A stretch of DNA of 64,000 nt, taken from NCBI GenBank assembly GCA_900469955.1, contig UBYX01000031.1, positions 62,001 to 126,000 on the forward strand, in the 5' to 3' direction. Below are positions 7,900 through 22,645 of this stretch, one piece after another. How positions within the stretch are numbered: the first letter of the stretch is position 1; each line of letters opens with the position of its first letter. The DNA comes from Hyphomicrobiales bacterium. GTDB taxonomy: Bacteria; Pseudomonadota; Alphaproteobacteria; Rhizobiales; Rhizobiaceae. The position numbers and the translations under genes were made by a program. Under the pieces are notes generated by a model that was not told where the DNA came from, ran no database searches, and saw only the letters and a program-made list of their open reading frames with translations.

Positions 7900-8021
7900 T
7901 CTCCCGTCTCTCGCCCTCGAACGCCTTCACTAATAAAACCCGCCCTCCGCTTCATTATACTGCACCCACCCCTACCACCACCCTAATGACTTTTGTTTGC
8001 AAAATCCTCCAAAGGGTGATA

Positions 8022-8041
8022 ATGACCGACCAGTCAGTCAT
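8022..8041. promoter_or_regulatory. TetR-type operator upstream of the efflux operon
   Basis: ATGACCGACCAGTCAGTCAT is a near-perfect 20-base palindrome: arms TGACCGAC and GTCAGTCA differ at one pair around a CA centre. It ends 15 bases before the tetR ATG and lies in the 157-base divergent gap, so it can control tetR and its operon, and possibly the opposite ABC gene. Its form is typical of TetR-family sites. Confidence 0.75.
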
Positions 8042-8056
8042 ATGTAGAATAAGTCG

Positions 8057-8692
8057 ATGGTCGAAAAACGAAGAGAAAAGCGGGATCCCCAGCAACGCCG
8101 GGCGGAAATCCTGAACGCCGCCTTTGCCTGTTTTGCCGAGCGAGGATTTGCCGCCACCCGAATGGAGGATGTCGCCGCCCGCGCCGGCATCGCCAAAGGC
8201 ACCGTCTACCTCCATTTTCCGGATAAGGACGCGCTGTTCACCGAGCTGGTGTCGGGCGTCGCCTCACCCATCCTCGGCCAAATGGGGGAACTCGTCGCGA
8301 ACGAAAGCGTCACGCCGCGCTTTGCCGTCTCGATGTTCTACTCCCTCTTCAGGCGGGAGGTTCTGGAAACGGACCGCCGGCATCTGTTGCGGCTTGTCCT
8401 GGCGGAAGGACCGATGTTTCCGGCCGTTGCCGAATTCTATCACAGGGAAATCATCTCCCGAGGGCTCGGCGTGCTGCGCATCCTGCTCGCCCGAGCGGTC
8501 GCGCATGGCGAACTGCGCAATCCCGGGATTGCCGAGACGCCGCAGATCGTCATGGCACCGGCCCTGCTCTCGATCGTCTGGACGACGCTTTTCGAACCCT
8601 ATGAGCATCTCGACACGCAAAAGCTCTTCGACACGTTTCTCGACACGCTCTTCGTGCCAGCTGGGGACCTCCTGGAAGGAGGCGCGCAATGA
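8057..8692 (+). CDS. TetR/AcrR-family transcriptional regulator (CecR-like position)
   Basis: One-component repressor of 211 residues. Residues 15-62 form the TetR helix-turn-helix: RAEILNAAFACFAERGF, then VAARAGIAKGTVYLHFPDKD, a textbook recognition helix. The remainder is a helical ligand-binding domain with no recognisable ligand motif. The gene is first in an operon whose next genes encode an HlyD-type adaptor, an ABC ATPase and a permease; the adaptor start overlaps its last codons (8689-8692). The arrangement mirrors Escherichia coli cecR (ybiH)-ybhGFSR, where the regulator controls the exporter. A palindrome 15 bases upstream suggests autorepression. Confidence 0.93.
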   Translation: MVEKRREKRDPQQRRAEILNAAFACFAERGFAATRMEDVAARAGIAKGTVYLHFPDKDALFTELVSGVASPILGQMGELVANESVTPRFAVSMFYSLFRREVLETDRRHLLRLVLAEGPMFPAVAEFYHREIISRGLGVLRILLARAVAHGELRNPGIAETPQIVMAPALLSIVWTTLFEPYEHLDTQKLFDTFLDTLFVPAGDLLEGGAQ

Positions 8693-9654
8693 AACGGGTG
8701 TTCGTCATCGCGCTGCTCGCGGGTATCGCGCTCGCCGCACTGCCTTTCCTCTTCGCTGAGACGAGCCCGCGGCCCTATCAGGGCTGGGTGGAAGCCGATA
8801 CGCTTTTCATAGGCGCGGAAGGCACGGCCCGGCTTGAAACGCTCGCCGTGGACGAAGGCCGGGCGATCAGCGCCGGCGCGCCACTCTTCAAGCTCGAATC
8901 GGCAAGCGAGGAGGCCGCGGTCGCGGCCGCCCGTGCCGCCCTCGCCCGCAGCCAGGCTGAGCTGGAACTTGCCGAAGCAGCGCAGAAACGCCCGGAAGAG
9001 ATCGATGTGCTGCGCGCCTCCGAACGCGAAGCTATCGCGCGGCTTGCGCTTTCCGAGCAGGAACTCGGCCGCACCCGTTCGCTCGCCACGCGCGGCACCG
9101 CCACCCAGGCCAGCCTCGACGTGGCAATCGCCACCGAAACCGCCAATCGCGCAGCCCTCGACAGCGTCCGCAGCCAGATCACGCTCGCCAATCTTCCCGC
9201 CCGCGAGCAGAACCTCCGCCAGGCGAAGGAAGCCGTGGCGGCGGCAAAGGCCGACCTCGCATCGGCTGAAGCGGCCCTCGCCCGCCGATCGGTCGCCGCA
9301 CCCGCCGCCGGAAGCGTCGAGACCGTCTACTACCGTGTCGGAGAGGTCGTGCCCGCCGGCCGGCCTGTTGTCGCTCTCCTGCCCCCTGAAAATATCCGCA
9401 TTCGCTTCTTCGCCCCGGAAACCGAGATCGCCCATTTTTCCCTCGGCCAACAGGTCCGCGTCTCCTGCAACGCCTGTGAGCCGCAGGATGCAAGGATCAG
9501 CTTCATCGCCAAGACCGCCGAGTTCACACCACCGGAGATCTACAGTCTGGAAGAGCGTGCAAAGCTCGTCTTTCGCATCGAAGCAATCCCGGTGGCGCCC
9601 ATGTCCTTGCGCCCCGGCCAGCCCGTCGATATCGCCGCCGGAGCCCGGCCATGA
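8689..9654 (+). CDS. HlyD/YbhG-family periplasmic adaptor of an ABC exporter
   Basis: Membrane-fusion protein of 321 residues that would connect the inner-membrane ABC exporter to an outer-membrane channel. It starts MKRVFVIALLAGIALAALPF, a single N-terminal membrane anchor or signal. A biotinyl-lipoyl half follows (GWVEADTLFIGAEGTARL), then a long alpha-helical hairpin (residues 75-200, rich in Ala, Glu and Arg), the second lipoyl half (RRSVAAPAAGSVETVYYRVG) and a beta-barrel region. The start has AAGGAGG upstream and overlaps tetR by four bases. The following ATPase gene overlaps it by four bases, so the operon is translationally coupled. Confidence 0.93.
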   Translation: MKRVFVIALLAGIALAALPFLFAETSPRPYQGWVEADTLFIGAEGTARLETLAVDEGRAISAGAPLFKLESASEEAAVAAARAALARSQAELELAEAAQKRPEEIDVLRASEREAIARLALSEQELGRTRSLATRGTATQASLDVAIATETANRAALDSVRSQITLANLPAREQNLRQAKEAVAAAKADLASAEAALARRSVAAPAAGSVETVYYRVGEVVPAGRPVVALLPPENIRIRFFAPETEIAHFSLGQQVRVSCNACEPQDARISFIAKTAEFTPPEIYSLEERAKLVFRIEAIPVAPMSLRPGQPVDIAAGARP

Positions 9655-10601
9655 GCACCGCGCCCGCAACCGTCGAAGGCCCCGAAACGGTGATCGACGT
9701 CCATCACCTGACCAAGAGCTTTGGCGGTCGCAAGGTGGTCGACGACGTCTCGATGTCGGTGAAGAAGGGCCGCATCCACGGTTTTCTCGGCCCCAACGGC
9801 TCCGGCAAGACCACCACCATCCGCATGCTCTGCGGCCTGTTGACCCCGGATAGCGGCGACGGCACCTGTCTCGGCTTCGATATCCTGACCCAGAGCGACC
9901 GCATCCGCCGGCGCGTCGGCTATATGACGCAGAAATTCTCGCTCTATCAGGATCTTTCCATCCGCGAGAACCTGGAATTCGTCGCCCGCGTCTACGGGCT
10001 TCCCGATGCACGCGGCAAGGCGAAGGCTGCGATCGAGCGGCTCGGCCTGAAAGGCCGCGAAAAGCAGCTCGCGGGCGATCTTTCCGGTGGCTGGAAACAG
10101 CGCCTCGCGCTCGGCGCCTGCATCCTGCCCGAGCCCGCGCTTCTCCTCCTCGACGAACCGACCGCAGGTGTCGACCCGCAGGCGCGCCGCGATTTCTGGA
10201 ACGAGATCCATGCGCTCGCCACAGATGGCCTCTCGGTGCTGGTTTCCACCCACTACATGGACGAGGCGGAGCGCTGTCACGAGATTGCCTATATCGCCTA
10301 CGGCAAGCTGTTGGTGCAGGGCACCGTCGACGAGGTTATCGAAGGCACCGGCCTTGTCACCTGGACCGTATCCGGCCCCGATGTTCACCACCTCCAGACC
10401 GAACTCTCGAAGCAGCCGGGCATCGACATGATCGCGCCGTTCGGGTTGAGCCTCCATGTGGCGGGACATGACGAAACTGCGCTCGAACAGGCGATCGCGC
10501 CCTATCGGGATCGCTCCGGCTTCAAATGGGAAAAGGGCGAAGCCACGCTGGAGGATGCCTTCATCGACCTGATGGGCCGTTCGCAGGACAATTTCAGATG
10601 A
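9651..10601 (+). CDS. ABC exporter ATP-binding protein (YbhF-like, single domain)
   Basis: Cytoplasmic ATPase of 316 residues that drives the adjacent permease. It has Walker A GPNGSGKTTT near residue 47, signature LSGGWKQRLALG near residue 145, Walker B LLLLDEPTAGVD and the switch histidine in STHYMDEAE. All catalytic positions look intact. E. coli YbhF carries two nucleotide-binding domains in one chain of about 578 residues; this protein has only one, so a homodimer is expected. It overlaps the adaptor gene by four bases and the permease gene by four bases (ATGA). The substrate is unknown; YbhFSR-type systems export cations or drugs. Confidence 0.95.
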   Translation: MSTAPATVEGPETVIDVHHLTKSFGGRKVVDDVSMSVKKGRIHGFLGPNGSGKTTTIRMLCGLLTPDSGDGTCLGFDILTQSDRIRRRVGYMTQKFSLYQDLSIRENLEFVARVYGLPDARGKAKAAIERLGLKGREKQLAGDLSGGWKQRLALGACILPEPALLLLDEPTAGVDPQARRDFWNEIHALATDGLSVLVSTHYMDEAERCHEIAYIAYGKLLVQGTVDEVIEGTGLVTWTVSGPDVHHLQTELSKQPGIDMIAPFGLSLHVAGHDETALEQAIAPYRDRSGFKWEKGEATLEDAFIDLMGRSQDNFR

Positions 10602-11755
10602 CCGCGCCCTACGATCCGCAACTCAACGGCAACGGAGGCTTCTTCAAGCGCTTCTGGGCGATGACCGTCAAGGAGTTCATCCAGATGACCCGTGATCGGG
10701 TGACGTTGGCCACCATGATCATGATCCCGGTCATGCAGCTCCTGCTGTTCGGTTTCGCGATCAACACCACGCCGCACGACCTGCCGACCGCCGTCCTGAT
10801 GCGCGAAAACAGCGATGTCGGCCGTTCTATCCTCGCCGCATTGAAGAACACCGACTTCTTCGAGGTCCAGTCCGTCATCACCCGCTCCGAGGATATGGAT
10901 TCGCTGCTGAAATCGGGCCGGGTGCTTTTCGTGGTCGAGATACCGGAAGGTTTCGAACGGGCGGTAAGACGGGGCGAGACGCCTGCCCTTCTCGTCGCCG
11001 CCGATGCCACCGATCCGGTCGCAGCGAGTTCAGCGCTCGGCGCGCTCAGCGGCATCGTTACCTCGGCACTCGCCAACGATCGGCAGATCGAGTTTTCGGA
11101 ACCCTCGAAGCCCGCGTTTTCGATCGTGCAGCACCGCCGCTACAACCCGGCGGGTTCGTCGACCCTCAACATCGTGCCCGGTCTCCTCGGCACGATCCTG
11201 ACGATGACGCTTCTGATCTTCACCGCCCTTTCCGTCACCCGCGAGATGGAGCGCGGGACGATGGAAAACCTGCTGTCCATGCCGATCAGGCCGCTCGAAA
11301 TCATGTTCGGCAAGATCACGCCCTATGTCCTGATAGGCCTCATCCAGGCCCTGATCATCATTTCGGCGGGCATCCTGGTCTTCCGGGTCCCGATTCTCGG
11401 CGACCTGCCGTCGCTCGCCATAGCGACGGCGCTATTCGTCATCGCCAACCTGTCGATCGGCTACACCTTTTCGACCTTGGCGACCAATCAGCTCCAGGCC
11501 ATTCAGATGGCGATGATGTTCTTCCTGCCGAATATCCTGCTCTCGGGCTTTATGTTCCCCTTCGCCGGCATGCCGGGCTGGGCGCAATGGATCGGCGAGG
11601 CGCTGCCGCTGACGCACTACATACGCATCGTCCGCGCAGTCATGCTGAAAGGCGCCGACATCGTCACGCTCGCCTATGATACGGGCGTCCTCGCCGGCCT
11701 GATGATGCTCGCCATGCTGATTGCCGTGCGCCGTTTCCGCCGAACGCTGGATTGA
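10598..11755 (+). CDS. ABC exporter permease (ABC-2 type, YbhS/YbhR-like)
   Basis: Inner-membrane permease of 385 residues of the ABC-2 family. A short cytoplasmic N-terminus (FWAMTVKEFIQMTRDRVT) leads into helix 1. A large periplasmic domain covers about residues 55-175. Five more helices fill the C-terminal half, including the ABC-2 signature region LSGFMFPFAGMPGWAQWIGE. ATG 10598 overlaps the ATPase stop (ATGA). Only one permease gene is present where E. coli has the pair ybhS and ybhR, which fits a homodimeric exporter with the single-domain ATPase. No terminator is obvious in the 148 bases that follow. Confidence 0.93.
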   Translation: MTAPYDPQLNGNGGFFKRFWAMTVKEFIQMTRDRVTLATMIMIPVMQLLLFGFAINTTPHDLPTAVLMRENSDVGRSILAALKNTDFFEVQSVITRSEDMDSLLKSGRVLFVVEIPEGFERAVRRGETPALLVAADATDPVAASSALGALSGIVTSALANDRQIEFSEPSKPAFSIVQHRRYNPAGSSTLNIVPGLLGTILTMTLLIFTALSVTREMERGTMENLLSMPIRPLEIMFGKITPYVLIGLIQALIIISAGILVFRVPILGDLPSLAIATALFVIANLSIGYTFSTLATNQLQAIQMAMMFFLPNILLSGFMFPFAGMPGWAQWIGEALPLTHYIRIVRAVMLKGADIVTLAYDTGVLAGLMMLAMLIAVRRFRRTLD

Positions 11756-11813
11756 CGGTTTTCTCGGCGCATTCGTCTCGATAACCGGAACAAGGACAAC
11801 CTCGGAATCCGCC

Positions 11814-11849
11814 TTGCATTATTCTCGTGCATTGCACAAAATCCTTGCA
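11814..11849 (+). promoter_or_regulatory. TTGCA-rich control region before the transglutaminase operon
   Basis: TTGCA occurs three times (11814, 11832, 11845), and the middle one lies in the perfect palindrome GTGCATTGCAC (11827-11837). The cluster lies 55-90 bases upstream of the ATG at 11904 and is a candidate operator or promoter. The AAGGGG repeats just before the ATG supply the ribosome site. Confidence 0.35.
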
Positions 11850-11903
11850 ACGATCATCGATCGGCCATCGTAGAGGCCGGCAAGGGGCAGCCAAAGGGGC
11901 AAA

Positions 11904-14900
11904 ATGGCGATCAAGGCGAGTATCTATCACCTCACCCATTATAAATACGACAGGCCCGTTCGCCTCGGTCCACAGATCATCCGGTTGAAGCCCGCCGCTC
12001 ATTCCCGCACCAAGGTCTTGAGCCACTCGCTGAAGGTCACGCCGTCGAACCATTTCGTGAACCTGCAGCAGGACCCGTACGGCAACTATCTGGCCCGCTA
12101 CGTCTTCCCCGACCCGGTGACCGAGTTGAAGATCGAGGTCGACCTGATCGCCGACATGACGGTCTACAATCCCTTCGACTTTTTCGTCGAGGAGGAAGCC
12201 ACCAAATGGCCTTTCGACTATCCGGAAACGCTGGTGGAGGACCTCTCCATCTACCGGATGCCCGAGCCCGCGACGCCGCTGCTTCAGGCTTTCGTCAACA
12301 CGATCGACCAGTCGCCGGACCAGCCGACGGTCGACATGGTCGTCGGCCTGAATGCGCGCCTGCAGCGCGAGATCGGCTATGTCATCCGCATGGAGCCCGG
12401 CGTGCAGACGCCAGAAGAGACGCTGGCCTCCGCCAAAGGCTCCTGCCGCGATACAAGCTGGCTGCTGGTCCAGATCCTTCGCCACCTCGGTCTCGCCGCC
12501 CGTTTCGTCTCGGGTTATCTCATCCAGCTGACGCCCGACCTGAAGGCGCTCGACGGCCCCTCCGGCACAGAAGTCGATTTCACCGACCTGCACGCCTGGT
12601 GTGAAGTCTATCTGCCGGGCGCCGGCTGGGTGGGTCTCGACCCCACCTCCGGCCTCTTGACCGGCGAAAGCCATATCCCGCTTGCCGCAACGCCGCACTA
12701 TCGCAACGCCGCGCCGATCTCCGGCGGTTATTTCGGCGAGGCGGAAACCTCCTTCGACTTCGATATGACGGTTAGCCGCGTCGCCGAGCATCCGCGCATC
12801 ACCAAGCCCTTCTCCGACGAGTCCTGGGAGGCGCTCGACGATCTCGGCGAAGAGGTCGATCGCATCCTGCATGCACAGGATGTCCGCCTCACCATGGGTG
12901 GGGAACCGACCTTCGTATCGATCGACGACTTCGAATCCGGTGAATGGAACACCGACGCCGTCGGCCCCACCAAACGCGAAAAGGCCGATATCCTGATCCG
13001 CAGGCTGCGCGAGCGTTTCGCGCCGGGCGGCTTCCTGCATTACGGCCAGGGCAAATGGTATCCCGGCGAGAGCCTGCCGCGCTGGACCTTCTCGCTCTAC
13101 TGGCGCAAGGACGACCGTCCCATCTGGAGCAATCCCGACCTCGTGGCGCAGGAAGGCCGCGATTACGGCATCGGCGATGACGATGCGGAAAAGCTGCTGA
13201 CCGGCATTGCCGACGAGCTTGGCCTGAGCCCGGATTACGTCGCGCCGGCCTACGAGGATCCGGCAGAATGGATCATCAAGGAAGGCAGCCTGCCGGAAAA
13301 CGTCGATCCGTCGAATTCCAAGCTCAAGGATCCGGAGGAACGCAACCGCATCGCCCGCGTCTTCGAACGCGGCCTGACGCGCCCGAGCGGCTACGTCCTG
13401 CCCGTCCAGGCCTGGAATGCCCAGGCCAGGGGAACGGCACCCCGCAAGCGCTGGATCAGCGAGAAATGGCGCACCCGGCGCGGCAAGATCTTCCTTGTCC
13501 CCGGAGACAGCCCGGTCGGTTATCGCCTGCCGCTCGGGACGCTCCCTTACGTGCCCCCGTCGCAGTTTCCGTATATCCACGAGGCAGACCCCTCGATCCC
13601 CCGCCAGCCCCTGCCCGACGCGATCGTGCCGGTGGGCCGCGCCATGCCGGAATCCTCGTTCAAGGCGGGCGATGCGGCCAATCTCGGCCGCGTCGAGCAA
13701 GTGCTCGGCGAGATCGGCGGCGCGGTCCGCACCGCCATATCCGTGGAGCCCCGCGACGGCAGGCTCTGCGTCTTCATGCCGCCGGTGGAAAAGATCGAGG
13801 ATTATCTCGAGCTGATCGCCGCTGCCGAAAACGCCGCCACCGAACTCGGCCTGCCGGTCCATATCGAAGGTTATGCGCCGCCGCACGACGAACGCATCAA
13901 CGTCATCCGCGTCGCGCCTGATCCCGGCGTCATCGAGGTCAACATCCATCCGGCCGCAAGCTGGAAGGAAACCGTCTCGATCACTACGGCCATATATGAG
14001 GAGGCTCGCCAGAGCCGGCTCGGCGCCGACAAGTTCATGATCGACGGCCGCCACACCGGCACCGGCGGCGGCAACCATGTGGTGGTCGGCGGCGCCAATC
14101 CGAACGACAGCCCCTTCCTGCGCCGCCCGGACCTTTTGAAGAGCATCGTGCTGCACTGGCAGCGGCATCCGTCGCTGTCCTATCTCTTCTCCGGTCTCTT
14201 CATCGGCCCCACCTCCCAGGCGCCGCGCATCGATGAAGCCCGCCACGATTCCATGTACGAGCTCGAGATCGCGCTGGCCCAGGTGCCCGCACCCGGACAA
14301 GGCGTGCCACCCCTGCCCTGGCTGGTCGACCGCCTTTTCCGCAACCTTTTGACCGACGTCACCGGCAATACCCACCGATCCGAAATCTGCATCGACAAGC
14401 TGTTTTCGCCGGACGGCCCGACCGGTCGCCTCGGCCTCGTCGAGTTCCGCGGCTTCGAGATGCCGCCGAATGCGCGCATGTCGCTCGCCCAGCAGCTTCT
14501 CGTCCGCGCGCTGATCGCAAGGTTCTGGAAGAACCCGGTACAGGGCAGGTTCGTCCGCTGGGGCACGACGCTCGCCGACCGCTTCATGCTGCCGCATTAC
14601 GTCTGGGCCGATTTCCTCGACGTGCTGCAGGATCTGCGCGAAAACGGCTTCGACCTTCGTCCCGAATGGTTCGATGCGCAGCTCGAGTTCCGTTTTCCCT
14701 TCTTTGGCGAGGTGGATTACAAAGGCTCGAAACTGGAGCTTCGTCAGGCGCTCGAACCCTGGCACGTCATGGGCGAACAGGGCGCCATCGGCGGCACTGT
14801 CCGTTATGTCGATTCCTCCGTCGAGCGGTTGCAGGTGCGGCTCGAAACTGCCAATCCGTCCCGTTACACCGTCGCCTGCAATGGGCGCGCCGTGCCCTTG

Positions 14901-15242
14901 AAGGAGACAGGAACGTCCGGCGTCGCGGTTGCCGGGGTGCGTTTCAAGGCCTGGCAGCCATCCGCCGGCCTGCATCCGGTCTTGCCGGTTAATACGCCGC
15001 TCACCTTCGACATTTATGATACATGGTCCGGCCGATCGATCGGCGGCTGCATCTACCATGTTGCCCATCCGGGCGGTCGCAACTATGAGACCTTCCCAGT
15101 CAACGGCAACGAGGCCGAGGCCCGCCGGCTTGCCCGGTTCGAACCGTGGGGGCACACGGCCGGGCGCTATGCGCTGATGCCGGAAACGCCCTCCCCCGAA
15201 TTTCCGCTGACGCTCGATCTGCGCCGGCCGCTAGGAGTCTGA
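11904..15242 (+). CDS. Transglutaminase-like protease fold plus DUF2126 protein
   Basis: Large cytoplasmic protein of 1112 residues. Residues 1-270 are a bacterial transglutaminase-like module with an N-terminal beta domain ([20 protein letters not shown]) and a complete triad: Cys181 in GSCRDTSW, His230 in [10 protein letters not shown], Asp246 in GLDPTSG. From about residue 320 to the end it is DUF2126, with the hallmark [11 protein letters not shown], the tract [13 protein letters not shown] and a conserved His/Gly patch [11 protein letters not shown] near residue 716. The triad suggests peptide-bond cleavage or amide exchange; DUF2126 has no proven activity that I know of. It begins a three-gene operon with an ATP-grasp/alpha-E protein nine bases downstream and a second transglutaminase. 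Substrate and product are unknown. Confidence 0.93.
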
Positions 15243-15250
15243 AACGCCCG

Positions 15251-17662
15251 ATGTCCAAGGCACCGGCAACCGACCGCGCAACCGAAACGCGGACCCCGAA
15301 GGATCCGATTCTCGGTTACGCAGCATTGCCGGGCATTGCCGACGAGATGCTGGACGCCAACGGCCAGATCCGGCCGGTCTGGCGCAACCTGATCTCGCAT
15401 TTGAGCCGGATGCCGGAAGGCGATCTTCAGGAGCGCTTCGCACGCGCCGACCGGTATCTCCGCGATGCCGGCGTCTTCTACCGGACCTATGGCGCGCAAG
15501 GCAGCGGCGAACGCAACTGGCCGATCTCGCACGTCCCCGTACTGATCGACGGCAAGGAATGGGAAGCGGTCTCGAAAGGCCTCGTTCAGCGTGCCGACCT
15601 CCTGGAAGCGGTCGTTTCCGATATCTACGGCGAGAACCGGCTCGTGCAGGAAGGTTTCCTGCCGCCGGCTCTGATCGCCGGCAATTCAGAATTCCTGCGG
15701 CCGCTGGTGGGTGTCAGACCGGTCGGCGGCCACTATCTGCATTTCTGTTCCTTCGAGATCGGCCGCGGCCCGGACGGCAACTGGTGGGTGCTCGCCGACC
15801 GCACCCAGGCGCCGTCGGGCGCAGGCTTCGCCCTGGAAAACCGGGTCGCCACCACCCGCGCGCTTTCCGATATCTACGGCGAAAGCCACGTTCATCGTCT
15901 CGCCTCCTTCTTCGGCGCCTTCCGTGACGCGCTGCAGGCACACAAGCAATATCCGGAGGACCGGATCGCGGTGCTGACGCCGGGTCCGGCCAACGAGACC
16001 TATTTCGAACACGCCTATATCGCCCGCTATCTCGGCTTCATGCTGCTCGAGGGCGAGGACCTGACGGTCGTCAACAACCGCGTCATGGTTCGCACGGTCG
16101 CCGGCCTGAAACCGATCGGCGTCCTCTGGCGGCGTCTCGATGCCTCCTATGCGGATCCCCTGGAGCTGAACCAGAACTCCCATATCGGCACCCCCGGCAT
16201 GGTCCGGGCGCTGCGCGCCGGCGCGGTCACCTTCGTCAACGCGCTCGGCTCCGGCATCCTCGAAACGCGGGCCTTGCTCGCCTTCATGCCGACCGTCTGC
16301 CGCCGGCTGCTCGGCGAAGACCTCTTGATGCCGTCGATCGCCACCTGGTGGTGCGGCCAGAAGGCCGAACGGGATCATGTGGCGAAGAACATCGAGAAGA
16401 TGGTCATCGGCCCCGCCTATTCCCGCCTCCCCTTCTTCGACGACAACGGCCAGTCGGTGCTCGGCTCGTCGCTGCGCAAGGCGGCGAAGGAATCGGTGGG
16501 CGACTGGTTGTCCTCCGAGGGATCCAAACTCGTCGGCCAGGAGGTCGTGACGCTCTCCACCACGCCTGCCTACGTGAACGGAAAGCTCGTCCCTCGGCCG
16601 ATGTCGCTGCGCGTCTTCGCCGCGCGGACCGAAAACGGCTGGCAGATCATGCCCGGCGGCTTTGCCCGTATCGGCTCGGGCCCCGACGTCGCGGCGATCG
16701 CCATGCAGGCCGGCGGTGCGGCCGCCGACGTCTGGATCGTCAGCGACAAGCCTGTGCCCAAGCCGACGCTGCTCCCGCCGGAGGAAAGCTTCACCCGCAA
16801 CATGCCCGGCAGCCTGCCGAGCCGCGCGGCCGACAACCTCTACTGGCTCGGCCGATATATCGAGCGGGCGGAAGGGGCGCTACGCATCCTGCGCGCTTGG
16901 CATCTGCGCTACGCCGAATCCGCCGATCCGAAGCAGCCGCTGCTGGCCGACGTGACGCGTTACCTCAAGGCGATCGACATCGACATGTCGAAGGCCGTGC
17001 CGGCCCCGCTCCTGCGCAATATCGACAGCGCCATCTATTCCGCAAGCAACATCCGCGACCGTTTTTCGCCGGACGGCTGGCTGGCCTTGACGGACCTTGC
17101 CAAGACCGCCCGCCGGTTTCACGAGGCGGTCCAGCCCGGCGACGACGCCAGCCACGCCACCACTATCCTGCTCCGCAAGCTCGCGGGTTTTGCCGGTCTC
17201 GTCCACGAAAACATGTACCGCTTCACGGGCTGGCGTTTCCTGTCGATCGGCCGGCATCTGGAACGCGCCCTGCACATGACCCGCCTGCTCGGCCATATGT
17301 CCGGCCCCGAAGCACCGGACGGTTCGCTGGACATGCTGCTGGAGATCGGCGACAGCGTCATGACCCATCGCCGCCGCTACAATGTCGCCACGGCCCGTCT
17401 GACGGTCGCCGACCTCTTGGCGCTCGACCCGTTGAACCCGCGCTCGATCCTTTTCCAGCTGAACGAGATCCGCACCGAGGTGGAGCAATTGCCGAACGCC
17501 TTCGTCAACGGCCAGATGTCACCCTTCTACCGCGAGGCGATGCGGCTCCATTCCGGCCTCGCCGTCATGACCCCGGAGGCGATGGATCACGAAGTCTACC
17601 GCAAGCTCGAACTGGAGATGGAGAAGCTGTCCGACATCCTCGGCCAGACTTACTTCAGCTAG
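15251..17662 (+). CDS. Circularly permuted ATP-grasp fused to alpha-E domain
   Basis: Cytoplasmic fusion of 803 residues. Residues 1-500 form the circularly permuted ATP-grasp module (old DUF404/DUF407 families) with conserved tracts FYRTYGAQGSGERNWPISHV, VLTPGPANETYFEHAY and GVLWRRLDASYADPLELN. ATP-grasp enzymes join a carboxylate to an amine through an acyl phosphate. Residues from about 518 to the end form the helical alpha-E domain (DUF403), recognisable by LPSRAADNLYWLGRYIERAE. In many genomes these are two neighbouring genes; here they are one chain. ATG 15251 is chosen because AGGAG lies about 13 bases upstream and the longer frame overlaps the preceding gene. Its position between two transglutaminase genes implies that amide-bond formation and hydrolysis or editing are coupled, by inference. 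Confidence 0.93.
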   Translation: MSKAPATDRATETRTPKDPILGYAALPGIADEMLDANGQIRPVWRNLISHLSRMPEGDLQERFARADRYLRDAGVFYRTYGAQGSGERNWPISHVPVLIDGKEWEAVSKGLVQRADLLEAVVSDIYGENRLVQEGFLPPALIAGNSEFLRPLVGVRPVGGHYLHFCSFEIGRGPDGNWWVLADRTQAPSGAGFALENRVATTRALSDIYGESHVHRLASFFGAFRDALQAHKQYPEDRIAVLTPGPANETYFEHAYIARYLGFMLLEGEDLTVVNNRVMVRTVAGLKPIGVLWRRLDASYADPLELNQNSHIGTPGMVRALRAGAVTFVNALGSGILETRALLAFMPTVCRRLLGEDLLMPSIATWWCGQKAERDHVAKNIEKMVIGPAYSRLPFFDDNGQSVLGSSLRKAAKESVGDWLSSEGSKLVGQEVVTLSTTPAYVNGKLVPRPMSLRVFAARTENGWQIMPGGFARIGSGPDVAAIAMQAGGAAADVWIVSDKPVPKPTLLPPEESFTRNMPGSLPSRAADNLYWLGRYIERAEGALRILRAWHLRYAESADPKQPLLADVTRYLKAIDIDMSKAVPAPLLRNIDSAIYSASNIRDRFSPDGWLALTDLAKTARRFHEAVQPGDDASHATTILLRKLAGFAGLVHENMYRFTGWRFLSIGRHLERALHMTRLLGHMSGPEAPDGSLDMLLEIGDSVMTHRRRYNVATARLTVADLLALDPLNPRSILFQLNEIRTEVEQLPNAFVNGQMSPFYREAMRLHSGLAVMTPEAMDHEVYRKLELEMEKLSDILGQTYFS

Positions 17663-17674
17663 GGCAGAGGACGG

Positions 17675-18562
17675 GTGGCGATGCTCTACGATCTCAACCT
17701 CCACATGGGTTACGTCTACGACGTTCCGGCCTCGGGCGCCCGTCACGTGATCCGGGTCCTGCCCTTGTCGCTTCCCGACCGGCAGCGGCTGATTGCCGGC
17801 TCCGTGACCGTCACGCCCAATGCCGACGAGCGAACCACCTTCGTCGATTTCTTCGGCCAGCAGGCGACCTCGGTTCTCGTCCGCGCGCCGCACGACCGGC
17901 TCGATATCCGCATGCAGGCCCGCGTTATGGTGGAGGCGCCGACAATGACGGCGGACCTCTCGCCGGAGCTCGACGAACTCAAGGAGGAGCTCGCGGAGCT
18001 CTGGTCGGTCGATCCGGCCTCGCCGCATCATCTCGCCGGCCCGAGCCCCCGTCTCGCGGAAGAGCCGCAGATCGCCGCCTACGCCCGAGAAATAGCCAGG
18101 CCGGGACAGACCGTGCGCGAAATCGCGCTCGCCTTGTGCGCCCGCATCCACAAGGATTTCACCTACGACCCTGAGGCCACCACGGTCGACACCACGCCGA
18201 AGGAGGCCTTCCGGCTGCAGCGCGGCGTCTGCCAGGATTTCGCCCATGTGATGATCGTCGGCTTGCGCAGTCTTGGCATTCCCGCGGGTTACGTCTCGGG
18301 GTTCCTGCGCACCATTCCGCCACCCGGCAAGGAACGCCTCGAAGGCGCGGATGCCATGCATGCCTGGGTCCGGGTATGGTGCGGCGAGACCGTCGGTTAT
18401 CTGGAGCTCGATCCGACCAACGACATCCCGGCCGGCAGCGATCACATCGTCGTCGCCTATGGCCGCGACTATGCCGACATCGCGCCGGTCGTCGGAGTCC
18501 TCAAGGGTTACGGAAATCAGAAAGTCGTCCAGGCGGTCGATGTCGTCCCCTTGAAATCTTGA
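17675..18562 (+). CDS. Stand-alone transglutaminase-like protein
   Basis: Predicted cytoplasmic cysteine peptidase or transglutaminase-fold enzyme of 295 residues. An N-terminal beta domain (HMGYVYDVPASGARHVIRV) precedes the catalytic core, with Cys186 in RGVCQDFAH, His229 in DAMHAWVRVW and Asp246 in LELDPTND. The C-terminal signature HIVVAYGRDYADIAPV is typical of this COG1305 group. Translation may begin at GTG 17675 (used here) or ATG 17681; GCAGAGGA lies at 17664-17671. It follows the ATP-grasp gene by 12 bases and completes the operon. Related operons in other bacteria often include an Anbu-type peptidase; none is in this window. Confidence 0.93.
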   Translation: MAMLYDLNLHMGYVYDVPASGARHVIRVLPLSLPDRQRLIAGSVTVTPNADERTTFVDFFGQQATSVLVRAPHDRLDIRMQARVMVEAPTMTADLSPELDELKEELAELWSVDPASPHHLAGPSPRLAEEPQIAAYAREIARPGQTVREIALALCARIHKDFTYDPEATTVDTTPKEAFRLQRGVCQDFAHVMIVGLRSLGIPAGYVSGFLRTIPPPGKERLEGADAMHAWVRVWCGETVGYLELDPTNDIPAGSDHIVVAYGRDYADIAPVVGVLKGYGNQKVVQAVDVVPLKS

Positions 18563-18569
18563 GGATTCC

Positions 18570-18584
18570 GCCTCGTTATGAGGC
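18570..18584 (+). terminator. Possible weak terminator of the transglutaminase operon
   Basis: GCCTC at 18570-18574 and GAGGC at 18580-18584 form a short stem with a GTTAT loop, followed by TAATCTTTTG. The stem is only five pairs, so termination would be inefficient. Confidence 0.4.
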
Positions 18585-18663
18585 TAATCTTTTGTAATTG
18601 CTAAAATTCTATTAATTCTCTTAGGCCTTCCTACACACGCCTTAACCTACCATGGCGCCAGTT

Positions 18664-18680
18664 GTTCAAATGATTTGAAC
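18664..18680. promoter_or_regulatory. Perfect palindrome in front of the TadG-like gene
   Basis: GTTCAAATGATTTGAAC has two perfect 8-base arms around one central base and ends 13 bases before the ATG at 18694. This is a strong candidate repressor site or leader hairpin overlapping the ribosome-binding region. Confidence 0.65.
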
Positions 18681-18693
18681 GGGGATTGGGGCT

Positions 18694-19989
18694 ATGAAAA
18701 CCTGCACGCAGTTTGCGCGCCTGATGAAGGACCGCGCGGGAAATTTTGGAATCATGACGGCCGTGGCGATACCGGTCCTCATGGGCGCCGCCGGCGTCGC
18801 GATGGATCTGACGCGCGTCATCGAGGAGAAAACGCATCTCCAGGCGGCCGCCGACGCGGCCACTCTCGCCGCGGCCTCGGCCATGTCCGAGGAAGGCAGC
18901 ATGAGCGAGACCGAAGCTGAAAAGCTGATGATGGATTTCTACATCGCCCAGGCCGCCCAGACGATCAACACGTCCGACATGACGGAGGAAGAAAAAGCCG
19001 CGGCCCTGGAGGCACTCAAGCTGAACACCGAGGCTATGGCGACGGTGACCACCACCACCAGCACAGCCGCAAGCTACGACATCCGCCTCAAGACGAGCTA
19101 CGACGTGCCGCTGAGCGGCCTGACTGCGCTTCTCGGCTTCGACAAGATGACGATCGGCATCGAGAGCCAGTCCGCAAGCGGCCGCGAGGGCAATGCACTC
19201 TCCATGTATCTGGCGCTCGACGAATCCGGTTCGATGGCCTGGGACACTACCTCCGTGGATCCCGCTCAGCCCACCAAGCAGGTTCAGAAATCGAGGCAGG
19301 AAGAATACAGCTGCCCCAACAAATGGAACCCGCACAAAATGTGCACGCGTACCGTCTACTACTATGATGAGGTACCGAATTACCTGACCAAGATGGCATC
19401 GCTGAAGGCAGCGGCGGCGGTGATGTTCGAGGAACTCGACAAGGCGGATCCCAATAAGGAACTCATCCGCGTCGGCGCTGATTCATACGACGACAGGACC
19501 AAGGCCGAGCAGTCGATCCAATGGGGCAGAACCGCGGTCAAGACTTATGTAAGCAATCTTCCCGCGGTTCCGGACGGCGGAACCGACGCCAGCGGCGCCA
19601 TGGCCAATGCGTTCGCTGCATTGAAAGCGGCGAACACGGCCGAAAAGGCCGCCCATAACGGCAAGGGCAATCCGACCTTCGAGCGCTTCATCGTGCTGAT
19701 GACCGATGGCGAGATGACCGGCAACAGCGCCAACTGGAATTCGACGATCGATCTCAAGGTGCGCGCGCTCTGCGAGCAGGCAAAGGCGGACAAGGACAAC
19801 GCCGGCAATGGCATCAAGATCTACGCGATCGCCTTCATGGCTCCGGCAAGGGGCAAGGAACTGCTGGAATACTGCTCCAGCGGCAAGGACGATTATTACT
19901 ACGAGCCGAACAACATGACCCAGCTTGTCCAGAGCTTCGGCGAGATTGCCCGCAAGGCCGCAAAGACCGGCACCCGCCTGACCAACTGA
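18694..19989 (+). CDS. TadG-like pilus-assembly/von Willebrand A domain protein
   Basis: Membrane-anchored extracytoplasmic protein of 431 residues. The N-terminus DRAGNFGIMTAVAIPVLMGA is a TadE/TadG-type segment with a single hydrophobic helix (residues 20-40), followed by the Ala-rich helix LQAAADAATLAAASAMSEE seen in TadG proteins. From about residue 165 a von Willebrand A domain begins, with MIDAS motif DESGSM (DxSxS) and later MTDGEMTGN. It also has a Cys pair (CPNKW, HKMCTRTVY) likely to form a disulfide outside the cytoplasm. No tad/flp pilus genes lie nearby, so it is an orphan TadG-like gene. A paralogue occurs at 41550. It is transcribed alone, between a palindrome and a strong terminator. 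Confidence 0.88.
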   Translation: MKTCTQFARLMKDRAGNFGIMTAVAIPVLMGAAGVAMDLTRVIEEKTHLQAAADAATLAAASAMSEEGSMSETEAEKLMMDFYIAQAAQTINTSDMTEEEKAAALEALKLNTEAMATVTTTTSTAASYDIRLKTSYDVPLSGLTALLGFDKMTIGIESQSASGREGNALSMYLALDESGSMAWDTTSVDPAQPTKQVQKSRQEEYSCPNKWNPHKMCTRTVYYYDEVPNYLTKMASLKAAAAVMFEELDKADPNKELIRVGADSYDDRTKAEQSIQWGRTAVKTYVSNLPAVPDGGTDASGAMANAFAALKAANTAEKAAHNGKGNPTFERFIVLMTDGEMTGNSANWNSTIDLKVRALCEQAKADKDNAGNGIKIYAIAFMAPARGKELLEYCSSGKDDYYYEPNNMTQLVQSFGEIARKAAKTGTRLTN

Positions 19990-20012
19990 CCCCGGCCAAC
20001 CGGACAACAGGA

Positions 20013-20038
20013 CGCTCCGCCCTCGGCGGGGCGTTTTT
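20013..20038 (+). terminator. Rho-independent terminator after the TadG-like gene
   Basis: A nine-pair stem (CGCTCCGCC and GGCGGGGCG with one G-T pair) around a CTC loop is followed by TTTTTC. It lies 24 bases after the stop codon. Confidence 0.85.
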
Positions 20039-20040
20039 CT

Positions 20041-20065
20041 TGCGCGTTTGCCCAGCAAATGCGCA
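20041..20065. promoter_or_regulatory. Second hairpin/palindrome upstream of glgP
   Basis: TGCGCGTTTGC at 20041-20051 and GCAAATGCGCA at 20055-20065 pair over 11 positions (one G-T) around a CCA loop. It starts three bases after the upstream terminator and lies 117 bases before glgP. It has no T-run on the plus strand, so it may be an operator or a terminator for antisense transcription. Confidence 0.5.
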
Positions 20066-20182
20066 AAGATAAAACGACCGTTGCAACTGGGTCATATCGG
20101 TGCATAAACTGTCGTCACAACATCGTGCCAGATGGACTGAATCGGACGCTATCCCCCCGCTCCACCAGAAAGTTGGCGACTT

Positions 20183-22645
20183 ATGAATGAAACGTCTTCC
20201 ACGGCTGAAATCCTTCAGCCGGCTCCCCGCAGCTCCCGCCCCGAGATTATGGCGGAAGAGATCATCGAACGCCTGACCTACCGCATCGGCAAGGATGCGA
20301 AGGTTGCCAAGCCGCATGACTGGCTGACCGCCGCGATCCTCGTGGTGCGCGACCGGATCATCGACAAGTGGATGGAGAGCACCCGCAAGGTCTACCGCAC
20401 CGGCGGCAAGCGCGTTTATTATCTCTCGCTCGAATTCCTGATCGGCCGGCTGATGCGCGACGCCGTCAGCAATATGGGCCTGATGAAGGAAATCCGCGAC
20501 GCCTTGACCTCGCTTGGCGTTGATGTCGACGTGATTGCCGGCCTCGAGCCGGACGCAGCACTCGGCAACGGCGGCCTCGGACGTCTCGCCGCCTGTTTCA
20601 TGGAATCCATGGCGACGGTCGACATTCCGGCCTACGGCTACGGCATTCGCTACATCCACGGCCTCTTCCGCCAGCAGATGGCAGACGGCTGGCAGGTGGA
20701 ATTGCCCGAAACCTGGCTCGCGCACGGCAACCCCTGGGAATTCGAACGCCGGGAAAGCTCCTACGAAATCGGCTTCGGCGGCACGGTGGAGACTGTCGGC
20801 GGCTATGACGAAACGCCCCGCTATGTCTGGAAGCCGGCCGAGCGCGTTATCGCCATGGCCTATGACACGCCGATCGTCGGCTGGCGCGGCAAGCGCGTCA
20901 ACACGCTGCGCCTCTGGTCGGCCCAGCCGATCGACCCGATCCTGCTCGACGCCTTCAACGCCGGCGACCATATCGGCGCGCTGCGCGAGAGCAACAAGGC
21001 GGAAAGCCTGACCCGCGTCCTCTATCCGGCCGATGCCAATCCGGCCGGGCAGGAACTGCGCCTGCGCCAGGAATTCTTCTTCTCCTCCGCCTCGCTGCAG
21101 GACATTCTGCGCCGCCACCTGCAGCAGTATCCGGATTTCACCAACCTTCACGAAAAGGTGGCGATCCAACTCAACGACACCCATCCGGCCGTTTCGATTG
21201 CCGAACTGATGCGCCTGCTGACGGACATCCACGGGCTCGACTTCGAGCAGGCTTGGGACATCACCCGCCAGACCTTCTCCTACACCAACCATACGCTGCT
21301 GCCGGAAGCGCTGGAAAGCTGGCCGGTTCCGCTGTTCGAACGGCTGCTGCCGCGCCATATGCAGATCGTCTATGCGGTCAACGCCCTGATCCTGGTCGAG
21401 GCGCGCAAGCACAAGAGCTTCTCCGATACCCAGATCCGCTCGATCTCGCTGATCGACGAAGCCGGCGAACGCCGCGTGCGCATGGGCAACCTCGCCTTTG
21501 TCGGCTCCCATTCGGTCAACGGCGTCTCGGCGCTCCATACCGATCTGATGAAGGTCACGGTCTTTGCCGACCTCCACACGCTCTACCCGACCCGCATCAA
21601 CAACAAGACCAACGGCATTACGCCGCGCCGCTGGCTGATGCAGTGCAATCCCGGTCTCGTCTCGCTCGTTCAGGACGCGATTGGCGACAAGTTCCTGGAC
21701 GACACGGATGCATTGACGGCGCTCGACGCCTTTGCCGACAACGCCGCCTTTCAGGAGAAGTTCGCGGCGGTCAAGCGGGCGAACAAGGTGCAGCTCGCCA
21801 ATCTCGTCGGCAGCCGCATGGGCATCCGGCTCGATCCGTCGGCCATGTTCGACATCCAGATCAAGCGCATCCACGAATACAAGCGCCAGTTGCTCAACAT
21901 CATCGAAGCCGTGGCGCTCTACGACCAGATCCGCTCGCATCCGGAGCTCGACTGGGTTCCGCGTGTGAAGCTCTTCGCCGGCAAGGCGGCGCCGAGCTAT
22001 CACAACGCCAAACTGATCATCAAGCTCGCCAATGACGTGGCGCGCGTCATCAACAACGACCCGGCCGTACGCGGTCTGCTCAAGGTCGTCTTCGTGCCGA
22101 ACTACAACGTCTCTCTGGCCGAGATCATGGTTCCGGCGGCAGACCTTTCCGAGCAGATTTCCACCGCCGGCATGGAAGCCTCCGGCACGGGCAACATGAA
22201 GTTCGCGCTGAACGGTGCGCTGACGATCGGCACACTCGACGGTGCCAATGTCGAGATGCGCGACCATGTCGGCGACGAGAACATCGTCATCTTCGGCCTC
22301 AAGGCCGACGAAGTGGCGAAGGTGCGCACCGACGGCCACAACCCGCGCGCCATCATCGAAAAATCCCGCGAGCTTTCCCAGGCGCTGAACGCCATTGCCA
22401 CCGGCGTCTTCTCGCCGGACGACCGCTCCCGCTTCACCACTCTCATCGACGGCATCTACAATCACGACTGGTTCATGGTCGCCGCCGATTTCGACGCCTA
22501 TGCCGAAGCGCAGCGGCACGTTGACCAAATCTGGACCGACCCTAAATCCTGGTATTCCAAGACGATTCGAAATACCGCCCGAATGGGATGGTTCTCCTCT
22601 GACAGAACTATTCGCCAGTACGCGTCGGAAATCTGGAGAGCCTGA
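20183..22645 (+). CDS. glgP: Glycogen/maltodextrin phosphorylase
   Basis: Cytoplasmic PLP enzyme that releases glucose 1-phosphate from glycogen ends. The 820-residue product matches the family length. Early conserved tracts are YYLSLEFLIGRLMRDAV and ALGNGGLGRLAACFMESMA; the PLP-lysine motif EASGTGNMKFALNGALT is near residue 673, followed by IGTLDGANVEMRD. It opens the glycogen operon. Its stop overlaps the glgB start (TGATG at 22643-22647). The ribosome site is weak (GAAAG upstream of ATG 20183). Having the degrading enzyme first in the same operon as synthesis genes is the usual rhizobial order. Confidence 0.97.
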   Translation: MNETSSTAEILQPAPRSSRPEIMAEEIIERLTYRIGKDAKVAKPHDWLTAAILVVRDRIIDKWMESTRKVYRTGGKRVYYLSLEFLIGRLMRDAVSNMGLMKEIRDALTSLGVDVDVIAGLEPDAALGNGGLGRLAACFMESMATVDIPAYGYGIRYIHGLFRQQMADGWQVELPETWLAHGNPWEFERRESSYEIGFGGTVETVGGYDETPRYVWKPAERVIAMAYDTPIVGWRGKRVNTLRLWSAQPIDPILLDAFNAGDHIGALRESNKAESLTRVLYPADANPAGQELRLRQEFFFSSASLQDILRRHLQQYPDFTNLHEKVAIQLNDTHPAVSIAELMRLLTDIHGLDFEQAWDITRQTFSYTNHTLLPEALESWPVPLFERLLPRHMQIVYAVNALILVEARKHKSFSDTQIRSISLIDEAGERRVRMGNLAFVGSHSVNGVSALHTDLMKVTVFADLHTLYPTRINNKTNGITPRRWLMQCNPGLVSLVQDAIGDKFLDDTDALTALDAFADNAAFQEKFAAVKRANKVQLANLVGSRMGIRLDPSAMFDIQIKRIHEYKRQLLNIIEAVALYDQIRSHPELDWVPRVKLFAGKAAPSYHNAKLIIKLANDVARVINNDPAVRGLLKVVFVPNYNVSLAEIMVPAADLSEQISTAGMEASGTGNMKFALNGALTIGTLDGANVEMRDHVGDENIVIFGLKADEVAKVRTDGHNPRAIIEKSRELSQALNAIATGVFSPDDRSRFTTLIDGIYNHDWFMVAADFDAYAEAQRHVDQIWTDPKSWYSKTIRNTARMGWFSSDRTIRQYASEIWRA

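Follow-up and report, generated by a model that had tools for sequence, protein, structure and literature searches.

What does a bacterium gain from an operon that encodes two transglutaminase-like units and an ATP-grasp protein, and which of its predicted ligases actually works? This question is raised by a three-gene operon in a stretch of 64,000 nucleotides from a Hyphomicrobiales bacterium (GCA_900469955.1, contig UBYX01000031.1, positions 62,001 to 126,000; hereafter the window). Gene 1 (11904..15242, + strand) encodes a transglutaminase-like domain fused to DUF2126 (1112 amino acids), gene 2 (15251..17662, + strand) a CP-ATP-grasp fused to an Alpha-E domain, and gene 3 (17675..18562, + strand) a stand-alone transglutaminase-like protein (295 amino acids when counted from its GTG; a further in-frame ATG lies at 17681). 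The intergenic gaps are 8 bases (15243-15250) and 12 bases (17663-17674). In an earlier description based on the letters of the DNA (the sequence-only reading), the locus was seen as an operon for amide chemistry, with the ATP-grasp unit as its ligase. The coordinates, strand and gaps given there were verified, as was the single 803-residue chain of gene 2, and the profile search that it had proposed was carried out with Pfam and finds all expected families in the three genes. The assignment of the ligase is revised here: gene 2 is probably a pseudo-ligase and DUF2126 is the likelier ligase. There is about an even chance that a ligase/cysteine-amidase system of two parts is present, with one half encoded elsewhere in the genome and this operon as the other.

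The evidence for a pseudo-ligase comes from the ATP-grasp part of gene 2. Pfam recognizes CP_ATPgrasp_2 (2.5e-137), CP_ATPgrasp_1 and Alpha-E (PF04168, 1.1e-58, 199.8 bits, 1-294 of 294) in this protein. The CP_ATPgrasp_2 domain, whose nucleotide/metal site is degenerate, is located at 15536..16672 (+ strand; from the alignment and the fold of 3n6x), and the Alpha-E domain at 16814..17656 (+ strand; from Pfam and the ER motif, in which E538 and R539 are invariant in a 24-row alignment). For comparison, ATP-grasp proteins were classed by BLAST score into a stand-alone type (separate ATP-grasp, Alpha-E and transglutaminase genes, as on contig C68 of the same genome) and a fused type (as in the window operon); among the later loci, open reading frames (ORFs) of ≤400 amino acids (stand-alone) or ≤600 amino acids (fused) were dropped. 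The resulting alignment contains 58 stand-alone and 126 fused proteins, the window protein among the latter. Seven positions were scored, namely E155, N157, K316, K363, G369, G370 and G372 (numbering of the protein in L003, a stretch on contig C68). Their putative role in binding metal and ATP is derived from the motif of glutathionylspermidine synthetase (GspS) and from the common fold.

All seven residues are present in 58/58 stand-alone ATP-grasps. In the fused type, none of the seven is left in 72 proteins, one in 38, two in 15 and three in a single protein. Three additional fused proteins from plasmid records, one of them from the acidobacterium Granulicella, have one or two of the seven left. 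The window protein itself carries A182, R184, R340 and G387, where the stand-alone type has Glu, Asn, Lys and Lys, respectively. Across the fused proteins, Glu does not rank with the six most frequent residues at position 155, while Lys is found in 2/126 at position 316 and in 8/126 at position 363. As the fused ATP-grasp lacks residues that are kept in every one of the stand-alone paralogues, gene 2 probably does not ligate through its ATP-grasp, contrary to what the sequence-only reading had assumed. That reading had also stated that it would be refuted if close homologues had lost their catalytic residues; such a loss is found in the ATP-grasp and not in the transglutaminases. The new site is itself conserved and non-random: the position of N157 is occupied by Arg in 113/126 and by His in 10/126 fused proteins, and the position of P402 by Glu in 108/126.

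The two types also differ in their divergence. Over the same 26 genomes the mean identity is 44.6% for the fused ATP-grasp vs 62.6% for the stand-alone ATP-grasp, the fused type being lower in 318/325 pairs, and gene 1 has a mean identity of 65.2% over the same genome pairs. For Alpha-E the difference is smaller than for the ATP-grasp (37.4% in the fused vs 45.0% in the stand-alone type; fused lower in 223/325 pairs). In a midpoint-rooted tree of 184 ATP-grasps the fused proteins fall into a single, weakly supported clade (0.618), and the stand-alone proteins do not group as a clade. The structural model of gene 2 has a predicted local distance difference test score (pLDDT) of 87.3. Its ATP-grasp part matches the putative 3n6x over 440 residues (Z 43.1, root-mean-square deviation (rmsd) 3.0), and the model also matches human glutathione synthetase (Z 24.6) and E. 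coli GspS (Z 21.3). Its Alpha-E part gives Z 7-10 with assorted helical proteins, which is under the meaningful level for helical bundles. Neither gene 2 nor any other place in the genome has a Pfam match to GSP_synth (PF03738). Inactivity of the fused ATP-grasp has probably been predicted before, since the Pfam text on PF04174 is said to describe frequent fusion of inactive forms with Alpha-E. As a separate observation, the fused-type ATP-grasp at one locus of genome G221 (L235, 8101-10677) has an Alpha-E part that is strongly diverged (118.7 bits), and neither DUF2126 nor a transglutaminase was found beside this gene.

If gene 2 does not ligate, the likelier ligase of the operon, judging from the models, is the DUF2126 half of gene 1. 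In this protein Pfam finds Bact_transglu_N, Transglut_core (12288..12644, + strand; triad placed by alignment) and DUF2126 (PF09899, E=0, 1336.1 bits, profile 2-826 of 826). The DUF2126 part, a predicted carboxylate-amine ligase resembling glutamine synthetase (GS-like), lies at 12738..15224 (+ strand). Many of its polar residues are identical in 130/130 sequences, including E334, E389, E678, N680, H725, E847 and R849. The domain models as a glutamine-synthetase-like fold: its best match is 4s17 (Z 11.5, 284 residues, rmsd 4.2), followed by many glutamine synthetase rows at Z 10-11 and by YbdK at Z 9.4. The domain is a putative ATP-dependent amide ligase. This agrees with a report of 2008, in which Rv2566 and relatives were described as a family that has a transglutaminase at the N-terminus and a carboxylate-amine ligase domain at the C-terminus (PMC2588565). 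The sequence-only reading had left DUF2126 as a possible further step; this step can now be specified as probable GS-like ligation. In one genome (G019:C1:562941-565401) the DUF2126 match is divided over two slightly overlapping pieces in separate open frames, a possible frameshift.

The cysteine units, on the other hand, are preserved as the sequence-only reading had described them. The triad of gene 1 (C181, H230 and D246) is identical in 130/130 sequences, the window sequence included in this and the following counts. Gene 3, with Bact_transglu_N and Transglut_core in Pfam, has C186 and H229 in 125/125 and D246 in 124/125 sequences, the remaining one having a gap at this position. The transglutaminase half of the gene 1 model matches 3isr (Z 13.6, rmsd 8.6). 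Both papain-fold units thus carry an intact Cys-His-Asp triad and are predicted to be active, which supports the view of an operon for amide chemistry. In the operon this cysteine chemistry would be directed at hydrolysis or at acyl transfer.

A ligase of the active type is found at a second locus. Alpha-E occurs at two loci of the genome, namely in the window operon and on contig C68, and Bact_transglu_N at three places (genes 1 and 3, plus C68). In the C68 operon, three separate genes in a row encode an ATP-grasp (6195-7604 in L003), Alpha-E (7614-8555) and a transglutaminase (8582-9430). Its ATP-grasp is of the active type, with seven of seven site residues. For a Yersinia homologue of this stand-alone type, the release of phosphate from ATP was shown (PMC6376114).

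The occurrence of the two gene sets was compared in 120 genomes of the order and in 199 genomes of the phylum. Alpha-E is widespread (90/120 genomes of the order, 115/199 of the phylum), and DUF2126 is nested within its range. Within the order, DUF2126 and a pair of Alpha-E genes occur in exactly the same 53 genomes. In the phylum, 60/60 genomes with DUF2126 carry Alpha-E, 56 of them two or more. No sampled genome has DUF2126 without Alpha-E (53/53 and 60/60, respectively). The formal probabilities of this nesting (6e-10 and 6e-19) are overstated, because the samples overlap and the genomes share ancestry. Overall, the stand-alone and fused sets belong together in the genomes sampled. The three genes of the window are also conserved as a unit: they are found together in 71/80 named loci, with median ORF gaps of 6 and -4 bases, so their arrangement in the window is not due to chance. 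Four of the other nine loci end at a contig edge, and five have ~10 kb of downstream DNA that does not contain the other two genes.

The two sets can even be joined in one cluster. Outside the order, 22 loci with DUF2126 were fetched, and ATP-grasp-1 and Alpha-E-1 share a stretch of 20 kb with DUF2126 in 15/22; this is no unbiased rate, because some of these loci were picked on coordinates already suggesting clustering. In the order, joined clusters occur in two loci of a single family (L074 and L080), and among the 80 named loci in one (L143). The most compact example is located on an IncFII plasmid of Enterobacter roggenkampii (NZ_CP116251.1; L264, 5603-14794), near arsC and an IS6 transposase. 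Here the genes follow one another as ATP-grasp-1, Alpha-E, transglutaminase-DUF2126, fused ATP-grasp and transglutaminase. Near copies of this five-gene cassette were found neither in other plasmid records nor in E. coli genomes. In a replicon of Burkholderia cenocepacia (L263) both triplets stand in a row, where they are unannotated (the start of the last gene is approximate). Being compact, the Enterobacter cassette would lend itself to reconstitution and assay of the system.

Related operons often contain the proteasome-family protein Anbu, as the sequence-only reading had remarked. This holds for the stand-alone type, where the Anbu family is present in 29/34 loci of the order, and does not hold for the fused type (0/28; identity was checked on one member). 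A direct Anbu query (E 1e-5) matched 78/120 genomes of the order: 33/37 of those with one Alpha-E gene, 45/53 of those with two and none elsewhere. Anbu therefore belongs to the stand-alone operon type. The same query found no Anbu in the genome of the window, so that the absence already noted for the window extends to the whole genome. It was not overlooked by the Pfam model, which detects an Anbu control; the sole proteasome-family match in the genome is an ORF of 175 amino acids, read as HslV. At the place that Anbu occupies in related operons, just downstream of the stand-alone operon, a small ORF is found on the - strand (L003, 9537-9968), which we take to resemble a PIN/VapC toxin. In four loci from outside the order (L236, L237, L223 and L240), Anbu is located directly beside the transglutaminase-DUF2126 gene.

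As to when such a system might be used, data on relatives point to nitrogen starvation. In B. cenocepacia H111, NtrC and sigma-54 share I35_5080-5083 as targets, whose products are given as DUF404/DUF407, DUF403, transglutaminase and large transglutaminase proteins (PMC5491218). This order equals that of the first four genes of L263, which is from a different strain. In Pseudomonas putida, one study found PP_2686-2688 upregulated in every strain when nitrogen was limiting (PMC7801951), and another found higher levels of PP_2685 and PP_2688 with nitrate than with ammonium (PMC8050072). In Sinorhizobium meliloti SM11, the regulatory region of a COG2308 gene (ATP-grasp family, either type) is associated with nodule competitiveness (PMC8407117). 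The transglutaminase homologue and the ATP-grasp gene mentioned in two other studies, on Caulobacter NtrC (PMC10274813) and on Bradyrhizobium RpoN (PMC13207237), could not be tied to the family. Nitrogen starvation as a trigger would thus be transferred to this genome by analogy from published data on relatives. Among the upstream stretches compared, sigma-54-like sites matching at least 9 of 11 bases precede 14/58 stand-alone ATP-grasps vs 46/1457 control upstreams; the enrichment before gene 1 is weaker (12/129). The stand-alone operon of this genome has a best site of 8 of 11.

Upstream of gene 1 a different element was found by sequence comparison. It comprises 27 bases (11813..11839, + strand) and recurs in relatives from the Rhizobium group, with the upstream DNA around it otherwise poorly conserved. 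With ≤2 mismatches it recurs in 15 further gene 1 upstream stretches (129 examined, window counted), and with ≤4 mismatches it is found in 16/80 named loci. The loci bearing it are named Rhizobium, Agrobacterium, Ciceribacter, Metarhizobium, Sinorhizobium, Martelella or 'Rhizobiales bacterium'. Within the genome the element is single-copy (no second copy with ≤3 mismatches). It was also considered as the mark of a genome-wide regulon and rejected as such, given its one copy and a looser pattern that yields five more sites vs three in a reversed control.

How could these parts work together? In the reading to which we give an even chance, the hub would be the stand-alone operon with its active-type ATP-grasp, Alpha-E and transglutaminase, and the window operon would contribute further parts to it. 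Gene 1 would add DUF2126 as a GS-like ligase, on one chain with a papain-like Cys-His-Asp unit. Gene 2 would add the pseudo-ligase and a second Alpha-E, and may act as a scaffold, as a holder of substrate or as a regulator of the active paralogue, possibly within a hetero-complex. Gene 3 would add another cysteine hydrolase or acyl-transferase. The ligases would form an amide on a small molecule or peptide, which the cysteine units would cut or transfer. In a more far-reaching version, which we regard as rather unlikely, the fused protein would be an obligate pseudo-ligase partner, forming with the active ATP-grasp/Alpha-E pair and DUF2126 a single machine, induced by nitrogen starvation, that makes and cleaves amides on an amine or peptide. 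An arginine-bearing site would here have replaced the metal/ATP site, and assembly would run through Alpha-E. If this version were true, the plasmid cassette of Enterobacter would be the compact, complete and movable form of the system.

Several observations weigh against such a two-part system. Its members are not always found together: the fetched stretches around DUF2126 in three genomes (G151, G175 and G187) do not contain a fused ATP-grasp, a fused-type gene occurs without DUF2126 in seven genomes (G277, G279, G141, G296, G300, G231 and G221), and four DUF2126 genomes of the phylum sample have a single Alpha-E gene. G187 has two Alpha-E genes, both in short frames; in two of the genomes with a single Alpha-E gene (G162 and G192) DUF2126 is located at a contig end; and in two genomes of one family DUF2126 and the fused gene are on separate contigs. 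The structural case for DUF2126 has its own weak points, as the gene 1 model is fair at best (pLDDT 70.8) and Foldseek alone gives a weak result, with the first glutamine synthetase at E=0.05. For the roles of the ATP-grasp residues, aligning the profile with that of the GspS family pairs E103-x-N105 with E155-x-N157 (L003), a match that is not significant (E 0.24). A published pull-down detected no specific binding between Anbu and the other proteins of its operon (PMC6376114). The best sigma-54 site upstream of the window operon matches 7 of 11 consensus bases and is unconvincing as a promoter, and no notable site is found within 400 bases of the first ORF of L263. For PP_2685 (Anbu), two of the three columns of one table show little change (1.1-fold in one of them), and the same report cites the gene as induced in earlier work (PMC7801951).

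One alternative is nitrogen salvage by tagging, in which the GS-like ligase would glutamylate an amine and the cysteine units would subsequently release its nitrogen. Pathways for amines that combine a GS-like ligase with an amidase exist, and the solved GmaS and 1-naphthylamine glutamine synthetase are among the structural neighbours of the DUF2126 model. However, ordinary glutamine synthetases score equally high as these amine-specific ones. The NtrC control in relatives would fit, as would a metagenomic association of Alpha-E, ATP-grasp and Bact_transglu_N with urea-metabolism domains (PMC3597751). The surroundings of the operon speak against it. In a survey of 27 fused-type loci (≤5 kb, ORFs of at least 25 amino acids, excluding ORFs that overlap the system genes by >30 bases), no gene family is found in more than 5/27 flanks, and thus no constant amine transporter or oxidase. 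No substrate or function was recognized in the literature searched, from which subscription papers were mostly absent, in line with what the sequence-only reading had said. Taken as analogy, salvage of this kind seems improbable to us.

The tagging of proteins or peptides is less probable again, and we consider it quite unlikely. The ligases would in this case add a peptide tag, which the cysteine units or Anbu would remove, as in published proposals (PMC6376114, PMC5666114). The confinement of Anbu to Alpha-E genomes in the order sample (78/78) is consistent with such a role. However, the survey of neighbours, which the sequence-only reading had advised as a way to find a conserved small peptide or an Anbu gene, yielded neither at the fused-type loci. 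No small ORF recurs beside the 27 loci, which speaks against a Pup-like tag and led to the rejection of a conserved substrate peptide; the same is stated for Rv2566-type genes in PMC2588565. Anbu is missing from this genome, and in PMC6376114 it is described as without peptidase activity. The last alternative, an active fused ATP-grasp whose rebuilt site and new conserved motif would serve a different acid or nucleotide, can draw on the conservation of the rebuilt stretch and on the confidently predicted fold, yet it is very unlikely given that most fused proteins have neither the acidic metal ligand nor the two lysines nor the glycine loop, and that the fused ATP-grasp diverges faster than its active paralogue.

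The genes around the operon look unrelated to it. Upstream, Pfam identifies an SbmA/BacA-like ABC transporter (6103-7899, - strand; ABC_membrane_2, SbmA_BacA) and a TetR-HlyD-ABC set, and downstream a Tad/VWA protein, a glycogen-phosphorylase-type protein and a GlgB-type protein. A terminator-like hairpin follows gene 3 (18570..18584, + strand), for which the evidence is weak, as the region has 9 hairpin-type sites vs 4.7 in shuffles. Rfam has no match in 10000-20200, and NCBIfam has none to the three operon proteins at E 0.001. A defence or phage system was considered and rejected, since PADLOC returned 0 families for 5 proteins and PHROGs gave no match.

Among known systems, the window operon is closest to the Anbu-type operon (CP-ATP-grasp, Alpha-E, transglutaminase and Anbu), with which it shares three domain families and of which this genome has a copy without Anbu on C68. 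It differs by the fusion of ATP-grasp and Alpha-E, the lost ATP-site residues, the added DUF2126 and the missing Anbu. The whole system is reportedly due to a paper by Iyer et al. of 2009. The Anbu-type operon has been predicted in print as a system for peptide synthesis or modification (PMC6376114, PMC5666114). Gene 1 has the same architecture as the Rv2566 transglutaminase-carboxylate-amine ligase family, compared here by its description (PMC2588565). The ATP-grasp part of gene 2 has the fold of glutathione and glutathionylspermidine synthetases (Z 20-25), yet unlike the latter it lacks a GSP_synth match and has lost the catalytic-type residues. The Rlo operon of Pseudomonas likewise combines an ATP-grasp with a transglutaminase-like protein (PMC12239564); its transglutaminase is reportedly membrane-bound and inactive and is accompanied by a secreted retropepsin, whereas both triads are intact in the window and Pfam finds no such protease in the three genes. 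The domain architecture, the predicted chemistry (since 2008-2009) and the neighbourhood association are thus already in print. What is added here is the pseudo-ligase count, the nesting of the two gene sets, the five-gene cassette and the upstream element. The analysis ties the two gene sets together and indicates which predicted ligase is probably dead and which one likely works.

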